Positions 5,976 to 30,143 are shown, numbered from the stretch's first letter. The stretch is DNA of 64,000 nt from an uncultured Oligoflexia bacterium (GCA_913058265.1 CAJXPQ010000005.1:124001-188000); one strand, 5' to 3'. Numbers and translations: made by a program. The notes: generated by a model not told the origin, from the letters alone.

Positions 5976-6566
5976 ATGAATTCACAATATATAAAAGAAG
6001 CCCTTGAGTCTGCTCAATCAGTTATAAATAAATTTATTGCTGATGAACAAAATATCGTTCTTATAGATAAAGCGGTTACCGCCTTCATTACGACCATCCA
6101 AAATGATGGACGTATACTTTCATGTGGAAATGGCGGATCGATGTGTGATTCGATGCACTTTGTAGAAGAATTAACTGGGCGCTACAGAAAAGATAGAGAC
6201 CCAATCTCTGCGATTTCTATGGGAGATCCAGGACATATAACATGTGTTGCTAATGACTATGGCTTTGAATATATTTTCTCTAGGCATGTACACGCCTGGG
6301 GAAGAAAAGGTGACACACTACTAGCTATCTCAACTAGCGGAAACTCTTTAAACGTTATTAAGGCCGTAGAAAAAGCTCATGAAAAAGGTATGAAAGTCGT
6401 AGGACTTTTAGGTAAAGACGGTGGAAAACTTAAAGACATGGTAGATATTCCGATTATCGTTGACTGCCCTATTACTGACCGTATTCAAGAGATTCATATA
6501 AAGCTTATTCATATCTTCATTGAAGGCATTGAGCGCACAATTTATCCAAAGCACTACGAAGAATAA
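5976..6566 (+). CDS. gmhA: Sedoheptulose 7-phosphate isomerase
   Basis: First enzyme of heptose synthesis for the lipopolysaccharide inner core: it converts sedoheptulose 7-phosphate to D-glycero-manno-heptose 7-phosphate in the cytoplasm. The protein is a single SIS domain of 196 residues. Seen motifs are SCGNGGS-x-CD-x-MHF-x-EELTGRYR, NDYGFEYIFSRHV, the phosphate loop STSGNS, and the C-terminal RIQEIHIKLIHI, all as in E. coli GmhA. The first motif has Met where GmhA usually has His (GNGGSMCD). I chose the ATG at 5976, because the ATG at 5940 is inside the trxA terminator hairpin; no strong ribosome site is visible. Confidence 0.93.
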   Translation: MNSQYIKEALESAQSVINKFIADEQNIVLIDKAVTAFITTIQNDGRILSCGNGGSMCDSMHFVEELTGRYRKDRDPISAISMGDPGHITCVANDYGFEYIFSRHVHAWGRKGDTLLAISTSGNSLNVIKAVEKAHEKGMKVVGLLGKDGGKLKDMVDIPIIVDCPITDRIQEIHIKLIHIFIEGIERTIYPKHYEE

Positions 6567-6617
6567 CCAACAAACTCAACTATATTCAAGGTCTAAGCAT
6601 TTATAAATAGGCAATAT

Positions 6618-6646
6618 TTGTCTGTTATGTCTCCTAATAATAATAG
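6618..6646 (+). promoter_or_regulatory. Probable promoter of the TolQ/TolR-type motor operon
   Basis: TTGTCT (6618-6623) and TAATAG (6641-6646) are separated by exactly 17 bases, 49 bases ahead of the ATG at 6695, which has AGGAG at a good distance. Confidence 0.4.
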
Positions 6647-6694
6647 CTTACAATAGTAAGTATAAATAAATTACTTTTCAATAGGAGTAGACAT

Positions 6695-7348
6695 ATGGAA
6701 GGTACCAGTATTAGTCTCATCAACCAATTAGCCGGCTTTATTCAAGGTGGCGGTGTGTTCATGGGTGTTATTTTAGTAGTGTGGGGAATCGGGATGGCCA
6801 TTGCGCTTGAGAGATTCAGAAAATTATCCAGAACATATGATGTTGATGGACCATCTTTCATGAATGAAATTGAAAGGTATGTTCTATCAAATGATTTGCA
6901 AGGTGCGATCAGAGTTTGCTCTGGCACAGCAGCTTCTCTTCCAAAAGTTCTAAAGAATGGCTTAAAAAGAGCAAACCAAGGAACAGAACAAATTCAAAAT
7001 GCGTTAGATGCAACAGCTTTAGAAGTTGTTCCTAAGGTAGAATTAAGATTAGGCTACTTATCATTAATAGCCAATATCTTAACTTTATTTGGACTACTAG
7101 GAACTATCCAAGGTCTTATGAATTCATTTGCTGCCCTAGATAGTATTGATCCAGCTCAAAAGGCTGAGTTCTTATCTAAAGGAATTGCAACTGCGATGAA
7201 CACGACTTTCCTTGGCTTAATAACCGCTATCTCAATTATGGTTATTCATGCCTTCCTAACAAGTAAGTCAGAAAAAATCATTAATGAGATTGATGAATTT
7301 AGTGTAAAGCTTTTAGACCTACTAGGTACAAAAGATAAAGCGGAATAA
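6695..7348 (+). CDS. MotA/TolQ/ExbB-family proton channel subunit (AglR-like)
   Basis: The 217-residue inner-membrane protein has a TM near residues 18-38, a cytoplasmic loop, then two adjacent TMs (about 120-150 and 165-190) with GLLGTIQGLM and the polar SKGIATAMNTTFLGLITAI, the conserved TolQ/ExbB core with channel Thr residues. Such proteins assemble with TolR/ExbD partners to turn proton flow into work across the envelope. The two following genes are exactly such partners, and the facing operon encodes Glt-like proteins. The best model is therefore the AglR subunit of the Myxococcus AglRQS gliding motor; the family is certain, the Agl role is inferred. AGGAG precedes the ATG by seven bases. 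Confidence 0.88.
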   Translation: MEGTSISLINQLAGFIQGGGVFMGVILVVWGIGMAIALERFRKLSRTYDVDGPSFMNEIERYVLSNDLQGAIRVCSGTAASLPKVLKNGLKRANQGTEQIQNALDATALEVVPKVELRLGYLSLIANILTLFGLLGTIQGLMNSFAALDSIDPAQKAEFLSKGIATAMNTTFLGLITAISIMVIHAFLTSKSEKIINEIDEFSVKLLDLLGTKDKAE

Positions 7349-23861: not shown

Positions 23862-24326
23862 TTAAGCGGCCTTATCATCAAACTGACTAATAAGAGCATT
23901 TAGCCTTTTAATCTCCTCACTAGAACCTTTAAGTCTTTTAGCAAGTAAGCGACACAAGTTTAACATTAGTAGCGAGAATATCTTTGGATTCTTTTTAAAT
24001 ATACTAAAAATTACGTCATAACTAAGTACGAGAACATCCGTATAGGTTTTTGCGACAATGTCTGCAGTACGAATACGCTCATCTAATAAAACCATCTCAC
24101 CAAAAAGGTCTCCCTTTTTCAGCTCTACGAGAGTAACATCACCTTTTTTAACCAAAGCCGATCCTGACAGAATTAGAAAGAGCTCATTGCCCTCATCTCC
24201 CTCTTTAAAAATATAATCCCCTTCTTCAAGGTTAAGCACACCACAGTCTTCAACTATTGATTCAATTTCTTCATCAAATAGTTCGAAAAATAATGGGCTC
24301 CCCTTAATGACATTAATTATACTCAT
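23862..24326 (-). CDS. Cyclic-nucleotide-binding domain protein, stand-alone
   Basis: The 154-residue protein is one CRP-type cyclic nucleotide-binding fold (about residues 10-125) with EEGDYIFKEGDEGNELFLI, a phosphate-binding cassette-like FGEMVLLDERIRTADIVA, and a C-terminal helix; there is no helix-turn-helix. The cassette keeps Gly-Glu and Arg-Thr-Ala, so it may bind cAMP, cGMP or a dinucleotide. Its ATG follows the MotA-like stop codon with no gap, so the two are translationally coupled. It is likely a soluble ligand sensor acting on that channel, which is inference from context. Confidence 0.8.
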   Translation of the reverse strand: MSIINVIKGSPLFFELFDEEIESIVEDCGVLNLEEGDYIFKEGDEGNELFLILSGSALVKKGDVTLVELKKGDLFGEMVLLDERIRTADIVAKTYTDVLVLSYDVIFSIFKKNPKIFSLLMLNLCRLLAKRLKGSSEEIKRLNALISQFDDKAA

Positions 24327-25229
24327 TTATGACGCCTTATCTTCTGAATCATCACTCAGCTTTTTATCTAGTTTATCTAGGACATCAATAAGTTTTTTCA
24401 TCATTGCTTCCTGAGACTTATCCGCATGAACATCTTGTTGAATATGATACCAAAGCATTTGAAGTGAGACTTCAAGCTTTTTAAATACTCTAAAACGAAC
24501 CTCTTTTATTGGAGAAAGAGTATTTAGAACGGTTAAAATAAGTGAAAAGAAAATCCCTGCGATTGATGTCTTCATAGCATAAGTAACACTTAGTACGAAG
24601 TTCATTAATGTATCAGCAGAAGCATCAAGATCATTAAAATCGATTTTAGCAATTTCAGGCAAGGCCATACTAATACCGATAAAGGTTCCAAAAACACCGA
24701 GGATAATAAATAATCCTGGAAGGATATCAATCATTCTTGCCACGCCATCAATAGGAAAATGCTTCATGACCTTGGTCCAACTTGGATCTTGCCCCATTAT
24801 TCTACGAGTTAGTTCAGGAAAGTTAGGAGGTGTTTGATGATGAAAGACGCTACTTTCAGCCTGGATACTCGTAATCAGTCCTTGTTTACCGGATACGTAG
24901 TCTCTTAAGGATAAAACTTTCTTTCCATCATCTTTCTCTTTATCTTCAGTCTTATCAGATCCTCCAAAGCGCACGGATCTTGAAGGTAACTTCTTACTTA
25001 CTCTCCCCATTATTTCAGAGATATAATGATCAATATCCCCAACTTCGGCTCCGGACTCTTTGTCTTTTTCAACATTGAGTTCGAGTTCTCGGGTAAAGGA
25101 CGAATAGTATGCATTATCATTCTTACTAGAACGATAGGCCGCAAATCTAAAGACTAAACCAATGGCGAGAGCTCCCCCCATAAATTCAATTAGGTATGTT
25201 GAAAAAAAACTTAGAACGAGTTCTAACAT
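24327..25229 (-). CDS. MotA/TolQ/ExbB-like channel protein of the coiled-coil locus
   Basis: The 300-residue protein has TM1 at residues 8-30, a long charged cytoplasmic loop (31-160), TM2 at about 165-190 (DILPGLFIILGVFGTFIGIS) and TM3 at about 210-238 (SVTYAMKTSIAGIFFSLILTVL), then a cytoplasmic helix. GVFGTFIG and MKTSIAG are the conserved TolQ/MotA pore-lining segments. The loop is longer than in TolQ and resembles MotA or ZorA-type proteins. AGGAG is seven bases before the ATG, which follows the MotB-like stop by ten bases. The pair forms a stator-like proton or sodium channel, with the CNB protein immediately downstream. Confidence 0.82.
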   Translation of the reverse strand: MLELVLSFFSTYLIEFMGGALAIGLVFRFAAYRSSKNDNAYYSSFTRELELNVEKDKESGAEVGDIDHYISEIMGRVSKKLPSRSVRFGGSDKTEDKEKDDGKKVLSLRDYVSGKQGLITSIQAESSVFHHQTPPNFPELTRRIMGQDPSWTKVMKHFPIDGVARMIDILPGLFIILGVFGTFIGISMALPEIAKIDFNDLDASADTLMNFVLSVTYAMKTSIAGIFFSLILTVLNTLSPIKEVRFRVFKKLEVSLQMLWYHIQQDVHADKSQEAMMKKLIDVLDKLDKKLSDDSEDKAS

Positions 25230-25239
25230 GACTCATCTC

Positions 25240-28200
25240 CTATTCTTGGACCTCTCGGGCCATATTAATTAGTTTATTTATTGATTTAACATCATCTTTT
25301 AACGTAAAACTTAATTCTACTCTTTGAGAAGCGTAACAATCATATGGTCCACACTTACTTCTCTTAACACTTGCGGGACTTCGGTTAATCTTCGGACTTG
25401 CAAAGACTGGTTTTGTAAATCCTTGTCCAATCGCTTTTGTGTATTCTTTTAGAGTTCTCTTATATGGGTAATCTGTAATTCTTTTACCAAAGATAAAGTT
25501 TGTTATACTCGCGGCCCTCTGAGCACTTAGTCTCATATTATATGAGTAAGCTAGATTATTATCTGATAGAGGTTTTACATACCTTCCCTTATGAGATGGT
25601 GAGGCATGTCCTATAACATTAAAAGACTGGATCTTATCCTTCACACTTTCGCTACCAAAAAGGACTTGAGAGTAGATTGGGATGATTGTATTTAAAGTTT
25701 TCTTGGCAGCTTTATTTAGCTTAAAGCTGTTCACGGCAAATCGGAAATTTTTATCCATTAGTAGTACCACGTTTCCAGTCTTACTATCTACATGGACATT
25801 TATATTTGCCTTTTTGAATTCATTGGCCAATTTTGAAGCAATATTTGTTCTTAGTTTTCCCTTAACCTTTGCCACTTTTGTAGCAAAGTCATTAAGAGAT
25901 TCTTTTAAGTCTGTATTTTTACTTTCAAGTAGACCTTTCTCTCTCTTTGCTTGTGCGAGCTTTTGAGCTAAAGCCTTTGAAGCTTCCACATCAACACCTT
26001 GCTTCTCTTTAACTTTACTTTCTAAGTGAGCTATTCGTTGTGAAGAAGCTGACTTATTTTGCTTACATGAAACAATTTGATTTTTAGTAATTAAGTTCTT
26101 TTGTTGTAAGTCGTTCATTCTTTGCTGTAGACTAGCTATTTTTCTTCCAGCTTCAGCACTTTGTAACTGATTATTCTGAGAATGACTCTGTAACCTTTGA
26201 TTTTCTTGTACTAAACCGCTATTTCTACTCTTTAGTCCTTCTATCTCGTTACCCAAACCGGCAACTTGTTGACCTAGGCTGCTATTACCTTGCGAAAGAC
26301 TCTCTACCTTTCCTGCCATTCGAGCATTTTCTGCTTGCAAGCGTGAAAGTTGTCCTGCCTGTAGGTCGACTTTTTTGGCTTGAGATTTACTTTGAAGTTT
26401 ACCTGATGCAAGTGCCTTATTAGCACTCTCCAGTCCACGACTTTTATCAGCTAAAGCCTGTTCAAGCCCTCGTTTGGCAGCACCAAGCTGAGCTTTTTCT
26501 TGACCTAATCTCGCAACAGAACCCTGAAGCTGTGAGTTTGAACTATTTAGTTTAGAGTTTTCGTTCTTTAACCCTTTAACTTCAGAATTTAGCCCTGCAA
26601 TTTTTTGTGATTTTGCAGTATTACTTGATTCGGATTTTCCAAGTGCTGACTTCAGCCCTTGGTTCTCGCCAGCAAGACTTTTATTCTGTCCAACAAGACT
26701 AGCAATTTCTCTTGCTTTACCTTGAACATTACCCGTTAGGCTTTTCTTATCTGTAGAGAGTGCCTTATTAGCCTGGGCCAATTTAGAAGCCTCGCCTTGT
26801 AAGTTTTTATTTAATTGAGATTTTTGTGAGTTCTCTGACTGTAATTTTTTAACTTGAGACTGTAGTCCCGCAATACTTTGGCTTTTAGCTTTATTCGTAT
26901 TATTAGACTTAGCTAAACTTGCTGTTAGGTTCTGGTTCCTAGTATTTAGATCCTTAGCTTCTCGCTTCATCCCTTCTATCGTCTGAGCTTTATTTCTAAC
27001 ATTTTCAGAGAGGCTCTGCTTAGCCTGAGAGAGATCACTATTTTTTTGATTTAACGCCGCAATTTGCTGCTTCGCCTGTTGATTAATCATTTTGGATTTC
27101 TCTAATGTTTGATTCTTTTGAACCACTTCCTTTGAAATCTTTTGATTTAAAGCTATTTGATTTTTAAGCTTTTGTTTTTTTTGATGTAGGTCATTTTCAA
27201 TAACTTCGATATGTTTTGATTTTTGTGCTTTCCACTCTGATAGGCTTGCAACCTTATTTTTTGTGATTTGTATTTCTTTTTGTTTCGTTTTTATTTCATG
27301 ATTATTGTTACTGACTGTACTTTCAAGTTTTACGACATCTGATTTGAGTTTATCAATATTTTTTGCTTTTACTGTTAAGTCTTTTGATTGGTCAGTAATT
27401 AATGTACTCTTTTCTACAATATTTTGTTCTAATTTTTTAATATCTTTCTTTAGGCTCTGCTCCGTCTTAACAAGTTCTTGCTTTTTTTGCTCTAGATTTT
27501 TAGATATTTTTTCTATTTTCTCTTGTCTCTTTTTAACGAGTTGATTTTGTTGCTCAAGCTTCATTGAAACTTCTTCTAACTCTTTTGATTTTTCTTCTTT
27601 TACTTTTGTCTCAAGATTAAGTTGTTGATTTTTCTCAACAATTGTCTTTTCTCTCAGTTGAACTTTCTTTGATACCTCAGTAAGTTGTTTTTCTTGAACC
27701 TCTGAAACTTCTGTCTTCTTCTTGAGGCTCTCGCTCATCTTTTGAAGTTCTTCTATTTTAGCTTCTTTTTCTGTAGTTTCTTTATCCAGTTTTTGCTCTT
27801 TTTCTTTCAATTTATCATTCAGCTCTGCAAGTTGTAATTTTAACTGGTCATGAAGTTGATCCATTTTAGTAATCTCTTCAATCTTCTCATCAAGAGTTTT
27901 TTCTAGTTTAAACTTGCTCTTTTTCTCTTCTTTTAAGTTCTTATCTAGCTCTGTAAATTTCTGACTTACTACAGTCAACTGAGCCTCTTTACGCTTTTGA
28001 TCTTTAATTAAGTCTTTCATTATCTTTTTGTTTTTCTTTAGACTTCCTACAAACTTGTTCATCTCTTTCATCTTACTATCAATAAGATCTTCGTACTCTC
28101 CAATTTCCTCTATGGATTCACTGACTTTATTTATTTTCTTATCTGTTGATTTCTTAACTTTTTTAGAAACAATACCTTGAAGTTCTTGTTCATGAGTTTT

Positions 28201-28350
28201 CTTCTCTGCTACAGATTGCATTTTTGAAACACTTGATTTAATCAAGGCAAATACAAACATAACTAAGAAAATCACAGCTACTGTTGTAAAGAGATCTGAG
28301 TATGAAGTCCATACACTTCCATCGTCTTTATGTTCTTCATCATCATACAT
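25240..28350 (-). CDS. MotB-like stator protein with giant coiled coil and OmpA-like C-terminus
   Basis: The 1036-residue protein has an N-terminal YSDLFTTVAVIFLVMFVFAL segment (residues 17-36) that matches the MotB transmembrane helix with its proton-carrying Asp (D19). Residues about 45-830 are an almost unbroken heptad coiled coil: Lys/Glu-rich in the first half, Gln/Asn/Ser/Gly-rich in the second, with tandem 91-residue repeats. The C-terminal domain (about 850-1020) has FNVIGHASPSH and NMRLSAQRAASITNFI, an OmpA/MotB-type peptidoglycan-binding fold. MotB and ZorB lack such a long coil. GAGG precedes the ATG by eight bases. It pairs with the adjacent MotA-like gene. Confidence 0.82.
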   Translation of the reverse strand: MYDDEEHKDDGSVWTSYSDLFTTVAVIFLVMFVFALIKSSVSKMQSVAEKKTHEQELQGIVSKKVKKSTDKKINKVSESIEEIGEYEDLIDSKMKEMNKFVGSLKKNKKIMKDLIKDQKRKEAQLTVVSQKFTELDKNLKEEKKSKFKLEKTLDEKIEEITKMDQLHDQLKLQLAELNDKLKEKEQKLDKETTEKEAKIEELQKMSESLKKKTEVSEVQEKQLTEVSKKVQLREKTIVEKNQQLNLETKVKEEKSKELEEVSMKLEQQNQLVKKRQEKIEKISKNLEQKKQELVKTEQSLKKDIKKLEQNIVEKSTLITDQSKDLTVKAKNIDKLKSDVVKLESTVSNNNHEIKTKQKEIQITKNKVASLSEWKAQKSKHIEVIENDLHQKKQKLKNQIALNQKISKEVVQKNQTLEKSKMINQQAKQQIAALNQKNSDLSQAKQSLSENVRNKAQTIEGMKREAKDLNTRNQNLTASLAKSNNTNKAKSQSIAGLQSQVKKLQSENSQKSQLNKNLQGEASKLAQANKALSTDKKSLTGNVQGKAREIASLVGQNKSLAGENQGLKSALGKSESSNTAKSQKIAGLNSEVKGLKNENSKLNSSNSQLQGSVARLGQEKAQLGAAKRGLEQALADKSRGLESANKALASGKLQSKSQAKKVDLQAGQLSRLQAENARMAGKVESLSQGNSSLGQQVAGLGNEIEGLKSRNSGLVQENQRLQSHSQNNQLQSAEAGRKIASLQQRMNDLQQKNLITKNQIVSCKQNKSASSQRIAHLESKVKEKQGVDVEASKALAQKLAQAKREKGLLESKNTDLKESLNDFATKVAKVKGKLRTNIASKLANEFKKANINVHVDSKTGNVVLLMDKNFRFAVNSFKLNKAAKKTLNTIIPIYSQVLFGSESVKDKIQSFNVIGHASPSHKGRYVKPLSDNNLAYSYNMRLSAQRAASITNFIFGKRITDYPYKRTLKEYTKAIGQGFTKPVFASPKINRSPASVKRSKCGPYDCYASQRVELSFTLKDDVKSINKLINMAREVQE

Positions 28351-28457
28351 TTTAGAGACCTCAATTAAGATTACAAAGCTACTGATGTAATTTATCGGTG
28401 AGTTCTCCTGTGACTAAAGACACTTCAGAAAGATTAAGGTTTCTATTTAGTTTTTGT

Positions 28458-29486
28458 TTATTCGAAGGGGTTAATGATTGAAAACTCAAGGCCTTGCTGC
28501 TTGGCCCCACTAAAAATACGACTTAAGATATTGTTTTGGTTATAAACACCACAGAAATTTTCGGCCCTAGCACCCGTGGCATAAACGTTAGAGACGAGTT
28601 TTGTATTTACAGTTTTTATGTTTTTTGTATATCTTTCAAACCTTCTCCACTCTTTTCCACTTTTCGGAAAATTGAGTTCCTTTACATCTGCAGTAGTTAC
28701 CAATACCAGTGCATCTGAATGTAATTTAGCAAATTCTTGCATTTTCTTAATCGCTGAATTGATCTCAATGAGTTCAGCCTTCGCTTCCTTAAACTTATTT
28801 GCCTGAAGGTAGTTTCGATACTGGAAGTTTCTCACTACATAAACAAAATTCCTTGTATTCTTGCTAAAGCTTTTAAATGTATTCTCTATATTTCGAGATG
28901 ATGTTGTAAAACACTCTCCTGACTTACAAGATTTATCATAATAAATACTTCCCGCTTTATAAGAGTTTTTCTCATTTACGTGAAAGATCTTGCTCTTCTT
29001 ACTGCTCTTACCCATCTTCCAAACAATAGCATCCTTTAGGTATCCCTCTCCCTCATCTTTACAGCTTTGAGAACTGAGAATACTTTGGGTTTTATAGCTT
29101 TCACCTTCAAAAACCCCACTCTTATAACCCTTTAAACCTAGATACGACCATATGGGCTTGTGTTTATAGTCGGTGCAATTTCTCTTTATATTTTTTTTAC
29201 CAGAAACTTGAGTCAAGAATGTTTCTTGCGCAGAAGGTCTTAATTTATAGAGGTTATAATCCCATGCTTGTCCCACACATAGAGATTCTTCAAATGCAGT
29301 CGCTCCAGGCTTAGCAGGACCAGTAAACTTCAACATCGCCAAGTGTTCAGTAGAAAAACCAGCTACTTGAAACCAAATTATCTTTGTGGGTATCTTTCCA
29401 AATTGATGCTTCTTTAAATTTAAGCTTGTTATTTGGGCACAACTTCCAATTAGAAAAATCAAACTATACAAAACAATATTTCTCAA
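28458..29486 (-). CDS. Lipoprotein, possibly of the alkaline-phosphatase fold, unknown function
   Basis: The 342-residue protein has a lipoprotein signal with lipobox IGSC (residues 13-16). The mature part begins with IIWFQVAGFSTEHLAML, which looks like the first strand and helix of the alkaline-phosphatase/sulfatase superfamily but without the metal-binding Asp. Later LVLVTTADVKELNFP corresponds in position to the usual T-x-DH strand, again without ligands, and TGARAENFCGVYNQ resembles the family's C-terminus. If so, it is a catalytically dead member. The start is a TTG inside the TTGA stop overlap with the upstream membrane protein. It is 107 bases ahead of the MotB-like gene. Confidence 0.6.
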   Translation of the reverse strand: MRNIVLYSLIFLIGSCAQITSLNLKKHQFGKIPTKIIWFQVAGFSTEHLAMLKFTGPAKPGATAFEESLCVGQAWDYNLYKLRPSAQETFLTQVSGKKNIKRNCTDYKHKPIWSYLGLKGYKSGVFEGESYKTQSILSSQSCKDEGEGYLKDAIVWKMGKSSKKSKIFHVNEKNSYKAGSIYYDKSCKSGECFTTSSRNIENTFKSFSKNTRNFVYVVRNFQYRNYLQANKFKEAKAELIEINSAIKKMQEFAKLHSDALVLVTTADVKELNFPKSGKEWRRFERYTKNIKTVNTKLVSNVYATGARAENFCGVYNQNNILSRIFSGAKQQGLEFSIINPFE

Positions 29487-30055
29487 CTATTAGCCTTTTT
29501 AAACTTTGAACTAATTAATACTAAATCTAGTATGGGAGAAATCCCAATAATAATCAATATTAAGGTAATATTTAACGCTAGAATCTTATAATCATTAATG
29601 AAATATACAGCCGCAATTGCCGGAATAAGTCTAAGCAACTTCTTTACTAAATAGCCATAATCACCTTTTGCTGAGTATAGAATAAAAGTTGAAACAATCA
29701 GGTACCCAGTACAAATATAAGGAATATAGTTAAATTCAAAGTAAAAACCTGCTAGCGCCCCAACAATAGGCACTTTCCACAAAACTTGTCGCTTCTTCTT
29801 ATTCATGAGTTTTATAGTCAGATAAGTGGTAATCAGTAAAGTATATGAAAAAAGACTTGTAATTAAAACTCTGATTCCTAGATCTGCAGCACGATAAGGT
29901 AGTAAATCCACCAACATTGAGGCCTCAACTAAGACAATACCTAAACCTATGATCAAAAAGCTTGATATAAAAAGATTTAACTCTTTTCTAAGTCTGAAGC
30001 CCACAAAAAATAATGCACCAAATGCTAAAAATAATGAGAGATACTCTTGAATCAT
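29483..30055 (-). CDS. Multi-spanning membrane protein, unknown function
   Basis: I place the start at the ATG at 30055 (190 residues), which leads straight into the first TM; a TTG 45 bases upstream also exists. There are about six hydrophobic segments (YLSLFLAFGALFFVGF, FLIIGLGIVLVEASML, VLITSLFSYTLLITTYL, VPIVGALAGFYF, CTGYLIVSTFILY, ILALNITLILIIIGIS). No family is recognised. It heads the minus-strand set that encodes the lipoprotein, the MotB-like, the MotA-like and the CNB proteins, overlapping the lipoprotein gene by four bases. It is divergent from the Fe-S oxidoreductase at 30144. Confidence 0.65.
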   Translation of the reverse strand: MIQEYLSLFLAFGALFFVGFRLRKELNLFISSFLIIGLGIVLVEASMLVDLLPYRAADLGIRVLITSLFSYTLLITTYLTIKLMNKKKRQVLWKVPIVGALAGFYFEFNYIPYICTGYLIVSTFILYSAKGDYGYLVKKLLRLIPAIAAVYFINDYKILALNITLILIIIGISPILDLVLISSKFKKANS

Positions 30056-30143
30056 ATCAATGACTTCGCTCCATGTTTGTTGTATATTATTAAGGTACAA
30101 TATTTACAATTAATAGTGAACTGATATTCGGTAAGGAGTGAAA

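Follow-up and report, generated by a model that had tools for sequence, protein, structure and literature searches.

A pair of MotA/MotB-like motor subunits and a stand-alone cyclic-nucleotide-binding (CNB) protein, encoded by three adjacent genes of an uncultured Oligoflexia bacterium, form one evolutionary unit, as gene comparisons across the order Bacteriovoracales demonstrate. Judged by its sequences, this trio is rated as a sensor-coupled branch of the 5:2 motors, on the same side as ZorAB, and the evidence tilts somewhat towards its being a second-messenger-gated proton motor that performs mechanical work on the wall. Known ion-driven 5:2 motors serve in swimming and gliding, in Ton/Tol work and in phage defence.

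The window, which is the whole 64,000-nt stretch of DNA analysed (GCA_913058265.1 CAJXPQ010000005.1:124001-188000), contains the locus at 23862-30100. Five minus-strand ORFs of 154, 300, 1036, 342 and 205 a.a. encode the CNB protein, the channel (A) subunit, the B subunit, a lipoprotein and a polytopic protein, respectively, and the coordinates and lengths given for them in an earlier note on this DNA proved correct. The features are as follows.

23862..24326, minus strand: stand-alone CNB protein, third gene of the trio, 154 a.a. (PF00027, 2e-18)
24069..24101, minus strand: phosphate-binding cassette GEMVLLDERIR of the CNB protein (alignment; G76, E77 and R86 invariant in 40/40)
24327..25229, minus strand: ZorA/TolQ-like channel (A) subunit, second gene, motA, 300 a.a. 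(ZorA models, 1e-9)
24525..24581, minus strand: TM3 of A, with invariant T221, S222 and G225 at polar ring positions (alignment, hydropathy)
24660..24716, minus strand: TM2 of A, with invariant G178, G181, T182 and G185 (alignment, hydropathy)
25240..28350, minus strand: ZorB/MotB-like (B) subunit, first gene, motB, 1036 a.a. (ZorB match, 9.5e-29)
25240..25866, minus strand: OmpA-like peptidoglycan-binding domain of B (GHASP, N..LS..RA, C-x4-C and RV motifs conserved)
25867..28230, minus strand: coiled-coil linker of B, 788 residues with no Pro (3.5-residue periodicity)
28237..28311, minus strand: single TM helix of B, WTSYSDLFTTVAVIFLVMFVFAL, near-invariant in a 35-sequence alignment
28294..28296, minus strand: Asp19 of B, candidate proton carrier, invariant; the PADLOC alignment offset places it opposite ZorB D24
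28458..29486, minus strand: lipoprotein, outside the system, 342 a.a. (weak alkaline-phosphatase similarity, 4e-5)
29483..30100, minus strand: polytopic protein, outside the system, 205 a.a., which goes with the lipoprotein (neighbourhood comparison)

The order of transcription is polytopic, lipoprotein, motB, motA and CNB. The spacings between successive genes, counted upwards from CNB, are 0, 10, 107 and -4 bp, so that CNB, motA and motB are packed together and the 107-bp gap sets off the lipoprotein and polytopic genes. Promoter and terminator sites were no more numerous in the locus than in shuffles, and a transcript boundary therefore could not be placed.

To define the recurrence of the trio, we used the A subunit as the query against 129 Bacteriovoracales genomes. 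The matches fell into two classes: some 40 loci were close orthologues (E < 1e-50), and the second class scored near 1e-25. The 40 orthologue loci were taken with their flanks for gene calling and comparison; the window and L141, a further trio from another family of the phylum, were added to give 42 loci. motB, or a piece of it, lay directly before motA in all 40 orthologue loci, and a CNB gene lay directly after motA in 39 of them (inverted in L044), mostly with a small overlap or a gap of up to about 50 bp. The motB-motA-CNB order and strand were the same in 40 of the 42 loci, the exceptions being L044 and L081, the latter with no CNB gene beside the motor and one elsewhere in the same genome. 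The inverted CNB of L044 (L044:3479-3973) is 45-47% identical to those of its neighbours, with motors about 70% identical, and is possibly a sensor replacement. Altogether the trio was found in 20 genera, with A subunits 36-69% identical to that of the window, a recurrence far beyond chance. The bacteria that carry it are related to the predatory Bdellovibrio. A scan of named genomes returned four loci, labelled Halobacteriovoraceae, Bacteriovoracia or Bacteriovoracaceae.

When the CNB protein was searched separately at E 1e-20, homologues were found in exactly the 39 motor-bearing genomes and in 0 of the 90 others (Fisher p 6e-34, counted on genomes that are mutually related; 20 of 48 genera at the genus level). 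CNB identities track motor identities (r 0.85), and in the five two-copy genomes the CNB pair had diverged about as far as the motor pair. The pairing of a MotA/B-like motor with a cyclic-nucleotide sensor, proposed in the earlier note, was thus borne out; a lack of co-conservation, which it had named as refuting its view, applied to the lipoprotein and polytopic genes and clearly did not apply to motB, motA and CNB, present in an identical set of genomes. A second CNB gene of this family, at G000:C7:44468-44896 (L162, ~6457-6900; 52% identity), is broken, with an in-frame stop and no adjoining motor, and is likely a remnant of a lost second trio.

The A subunit matched Pfam MotA_ExbB only at 0.028, below the cut-off, and the Zorya ZorA models at 1e-9, although its 35.8 bits lie far under the NCBIfam curated cut-off of 100. 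Hydropathy predicts three TM helices, and the protein ends about 65 residues past the last of them; nearly all of the 40 orthologues are likewise ~300 a.a. long, without a long cytoplasmic tail. The pore-lining polar residues T182, T221 and S222 are invariant in the 40 sequences. A profile of the subunit matched only ZorA among solved structures, and its AF2 model (pLDDT 76) matched ZorA and then TolQ/ExbB in the PDB, weakly (E 3e-3, TM 0.3-0.4). This modest-confidence model has only two 2-residue strands; the cytoplasmic domain of ZorA carries an extra beta-sheet (PMC12505986).

The C-terminal domain of the B subunit matched ZorB at 9.5e-29, but with 27.5 bits the ZorB match falls far short of the NCBIfam curated cut-off of 400. 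The N-terminal TM stretch, which carries a W..YSD motif, is among the most conserved of the system, and D19 within this motif is present in 35/35 aligned B N-termini. At the other end, the wall-domain profile found ZorB 8vvi at 1.2e-11, and Foldseek with a homologue returned ZorB first (4.6e-10), followed by other OmpA-like and MotB domains. GH.SP, N..LS..RA and RV are invariant in this domain, where H, S, N, L and R correspond to wall-binding residues by motif and alignment. In ZorB, the H, L and R of the wall site (and S in type II) are required for peptidoglycan binding (PMC11890865).

Between these two ends lies the coil. In the window its 3.5-residue periodicity was 6.9, compared with 2.9 in shuffles (sd 0.34). 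Among 30 complete orthologues the linker ranges from 311 to 1487 residues; as one straight coil, this would correspond to 46 to 221 nm across the family and to ~117 nm in the window. The linkers contain 40 prolines in 17682 residues (0.23%, versus 3.25% in neighbouring proteins), located mostly beside the membrane or the end domain, and show strong heptad periodicity. The longest B subunit (L052:4978-10254; 1758 a.a.) has many Gly/Lys-rich tandem repeats, and coils seem to lengthen as repeats expand. A hairpin fold of the coil is possible, because in the AF2 model of a short homologue a low-confidence break splits the helix midway into residues 63-230 and 238-370, and this model does not discriminate between a rod and a hairpin. 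We placed the coil in the periplasm on the basis of homology, the wall domain and the conserved Cys pair. The window's B subunit has an acidic N-terminus and a lysine-rich coil, for which the positive-inside rule alone would predict a cytoplasmic coil; this charge pattern argues mildly against the periplasmic placement. Several orthologues (L053, L056, L057) do have lysine-rich N-termini.

The third protein has a normal CNB domain and no DNA-binding domain. Its invariant residues form the Gly-Glu...Arg pattern through which CNB domains classically contact phosphate and ribose. The position two after E77 (E+2), usually a small residue, is Val, which could alter ligand binding. Its ligand would be a cyclic nucleotide, with cAMP and cGMP as the likely choices. 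A class III cyclase of 749 a.a. (L164:1938-4187, G000:C9), the only PF00211 match in the window's own genome, has an N-terminal part that is CHASE2-like by eye, and is a candidate source of the ligand. Other CNB proteins of the phylum are Bd1971, a cAMP-binding EAL enzyme, and Bd2879 (PMC12750041). They have the CNB fold in common with the trio's protein, but carry catalytic or DNA-binding domains, whereas the latter is stand-alone and tied to a motor.

We compared the trio with known motors. Zorya ZorAB (types I and II; 8qyd, 8vvn, 8vvi) are the best relatives of both subunits in sequence and fold. They too have a three-TM A subunit and polar TM residues, and their B subunit likewise carries a single Asp in its TM helix and ends in an OmpA-like wall-binding part. 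However, ZorA is ~700 a.a. long with a long cytoplasmic tail, which is needed for defence (PMC11890865), whereas the A subunit of the trio is ~300 a.a. without one. The trio motor instead has a giant coil on B, between the TM helix and the wall domain, as well as the gene order B-A and a CNB partner in place of ZorC/D/E. The ZorA and ZorB matches and the B coil agree with the earlier note, which had related the genes to Zorya and pointed out that the long part sits on the B instead of the A subunit. Membership in Zorya was rejected, since two of its defining features, the ZorA tail and, among the neighbours scanned, recurrent effector genes, are missing, even though ZorA and ZorB homologues adjoin. 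The flagellar stators MotAB/PomAB have the proton-path logic and an OmpA-type wall domain in common with the trio motor. MotA, however, has four TM helices and a torque-generating interface, and the plug and linker of MotB are short (~50 residues for the E. coli protein taken as reference in PMC12505986). Identity with a flagellar stator was ruled out by the three-TM topology, with Pfam MotA_ExbB below its cut-off. TolQR, ExbBD and AglRQS also have a three-TM A subunit, but their B subunits are short, without an OmpA domain or a long coil (PMC12505986, PMC3169522).

A 2025 survey of MotAB-type motors describes the periplasmic regions of non-flagellar B subunits as shorter and without OmpA homology, and the words "cyclic" and "coiled" are absent from its main text (PMC12505986). 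The literature searched, whose coverage left out most subscription journals and preprints, held no description of a CNB-linked motor, and the libraries searched held no family model for a motor with a giant wall-anchored coil and a CNB sensor. Within this literature and these models, the system lies outside those described, as the earlier note had supposed.

In a tree of 86 A subunits, the CNB motors form one clade (95/99), and the second class of the genome search, linked to FHA proteins, forms another together with a few others (98/95). These sister motors resemble the CNB motors in gene order (motB, motA, third gene), W..YSD TM helix, coil, GxASP wall domain and a sensor-type third gene; they differ in that the third gene encodes an FHA domain and a long coil instead of a CNB protein, and in being spread through the phylum (L084-L101, L143-L159 and L142, the last at L142:2306-7198; G131, 1,107,724-1,112,616). 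The third protein is ~700-1370 a.a. long, matched PF00498 at ~2e-14 in three of the four tested, and in several cases has a C-terminal hydrophobic segment. No existing name was found for the sister motor. A third motor class (L160:3923-7421, G061) comprises a B subunit of 835 a.a. and an A subunit of 325 a.a., with no CNB or FHA gene after them.

The comparisons establish the gene unit, the family relations, the conserved functional residues and the continuity of the coil at the sequence level, and from these it is reasonable to read the trio as a ligand-gated motor. As in ZorAB, a B dimer would sit in the inner membrane within a ring of five A subunits, and the passage of protons by way of Asp19 would drive the relative rotation of A and B; the conserved proton path argues for proton use. 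On the periplasmic side, the B dimer would continue as a stiff coiled coil ~117 nm long. The periplasm is 20-30 nm deep, so a coil of this length is too long to stand upright and should either follow the wall or double back, and beyond it the OmpA-like end would bind peptidoglycan. The CNB protein would bind the cyclic nucleotide and switch the motor, presumably at the cytoplasmic face of A, and the output may be torque, tension or stiffness exerted on the wall over 50-200 nm upon a second-messenger signal. More tentatively, we suggest that a cyclic-nucleotide-switched proton motor turns or tensions a wall-anchored periplasmic rod of 50-200 nm, with the force lateral along the wall, and that together with the FHA sister it represents a sensor-coupled wall-motor family characteristic of Bdellovibrionota. 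If so, 5:2 motors would be under direct control of a second messenger (CNB) or a phospho-signal (FHA sister), and a physical puzzle would arise, namely the role, between motor and wall, of a rod whose length is several times the depth of the periplasm.

A non-rotary alternative is that the trio acts as a proton channel gated by a ligand, or as a sensor of wall strain. The coil would then be a passive tether sensing wall position, with the signal carried by the CNB protein or a proton leak. The fivefold variation in coil length is more tether-like than expected of a fitted gear, and no downstream effector is conserved past CNB; nevertheless, the full conservation of the proton-path residues and motor core favours energy conversion, as in the characterised relatives, and we regard this alternative as doubtful.

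A Zorya-type anti-phage defence, activated in Pycsar fashion through the cyclic-nucleotide sensor and not in the usual way, appears improbable. ZorA and ZorB being the nearest relatives, the presence of CNB modules in Pycsar effectors, and the patchy distribution of the trio through gain or loss (the empty site described below and the broken CNB remnant) are consistent with it. Against it, neither ZorC/D/E nor a helicase or nuclease recurs beside the trio. PADLOC scans and a motif search of 123 neighbour proteins revealed no recurrent ZorC and ZorD, ZorE, or ZorF and ZorG; the PADLOC matches were isolated, with no Zor family among the matches listed, and no protein had both Walker A and DExx motifs, in line with the earlier note's remark that neither a Zorya helicase nor a Zorya nuclease adjoins. 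In addition, the upstream neighbours c2-c3-c4 are constant across six genera, unlike a defence island. The locus had no plasmid match, which also counts against defence; a plasmid origin of the trio was likewise dropped.

An accessory motility motor, either a flagellar stator variant or an AglRQS-like gliding motor, is a shade less probable still. Bdellovibrio glides, its genome has four sets of an expanded Agl/Glt core complex (PMC3169522), and the window's own genome has ten MotA/ExbB-type genes. However, the CNB and FHA motor clades stand apart (99/100, on long branches) from six MotA/ExbB proteins that this genome also encodes, no gene cluster recurs beside the trio beyond closely related genera, and AglQ/S are of the ExbD/TolR type, not OmpA-ended (PMC3169522).

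Although the five genes lie on the same strand with short gaps and occur together in the window and a few near relatives, a five-gene envelope system is very improbable and was ruled out by co-occurrence and the empty site, since the lipoprotein gene is present, as a single copy, in 124 of the 129 genomes of the order compared with 39 for the motor, and its neighbourhood is constant without the motor. The lipoprotein and polytopic protein, which the earlier note had counted as parts of the system, are consequently left outside it. The lipoprotein adjoins the trio in only four of the 129 genomes, those of the window and three near relatives. In ten genomes examined around it, a heterodisulfide-reductase-like (HDR) gene, a polytopic-like gene and the lipoprotein gene follow one another, and then, in genomes lacking the trio there, usually hsp33. 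The lipoprotein gene is directly followed by hsp33 in several relatives, two genus-mates among them, and in the window the trio sits between the two genes. By this empty-site comparison, the lipoprotein and polytopic genes form a neighbourhood of their own into which the trio was inserted (or from which it was lost elsewhere). The polytopic protein had no family match in the library scans. The lipoprotein represents an unnamed conserved family of Bacteriovoracales with its own constant neighbourhood.
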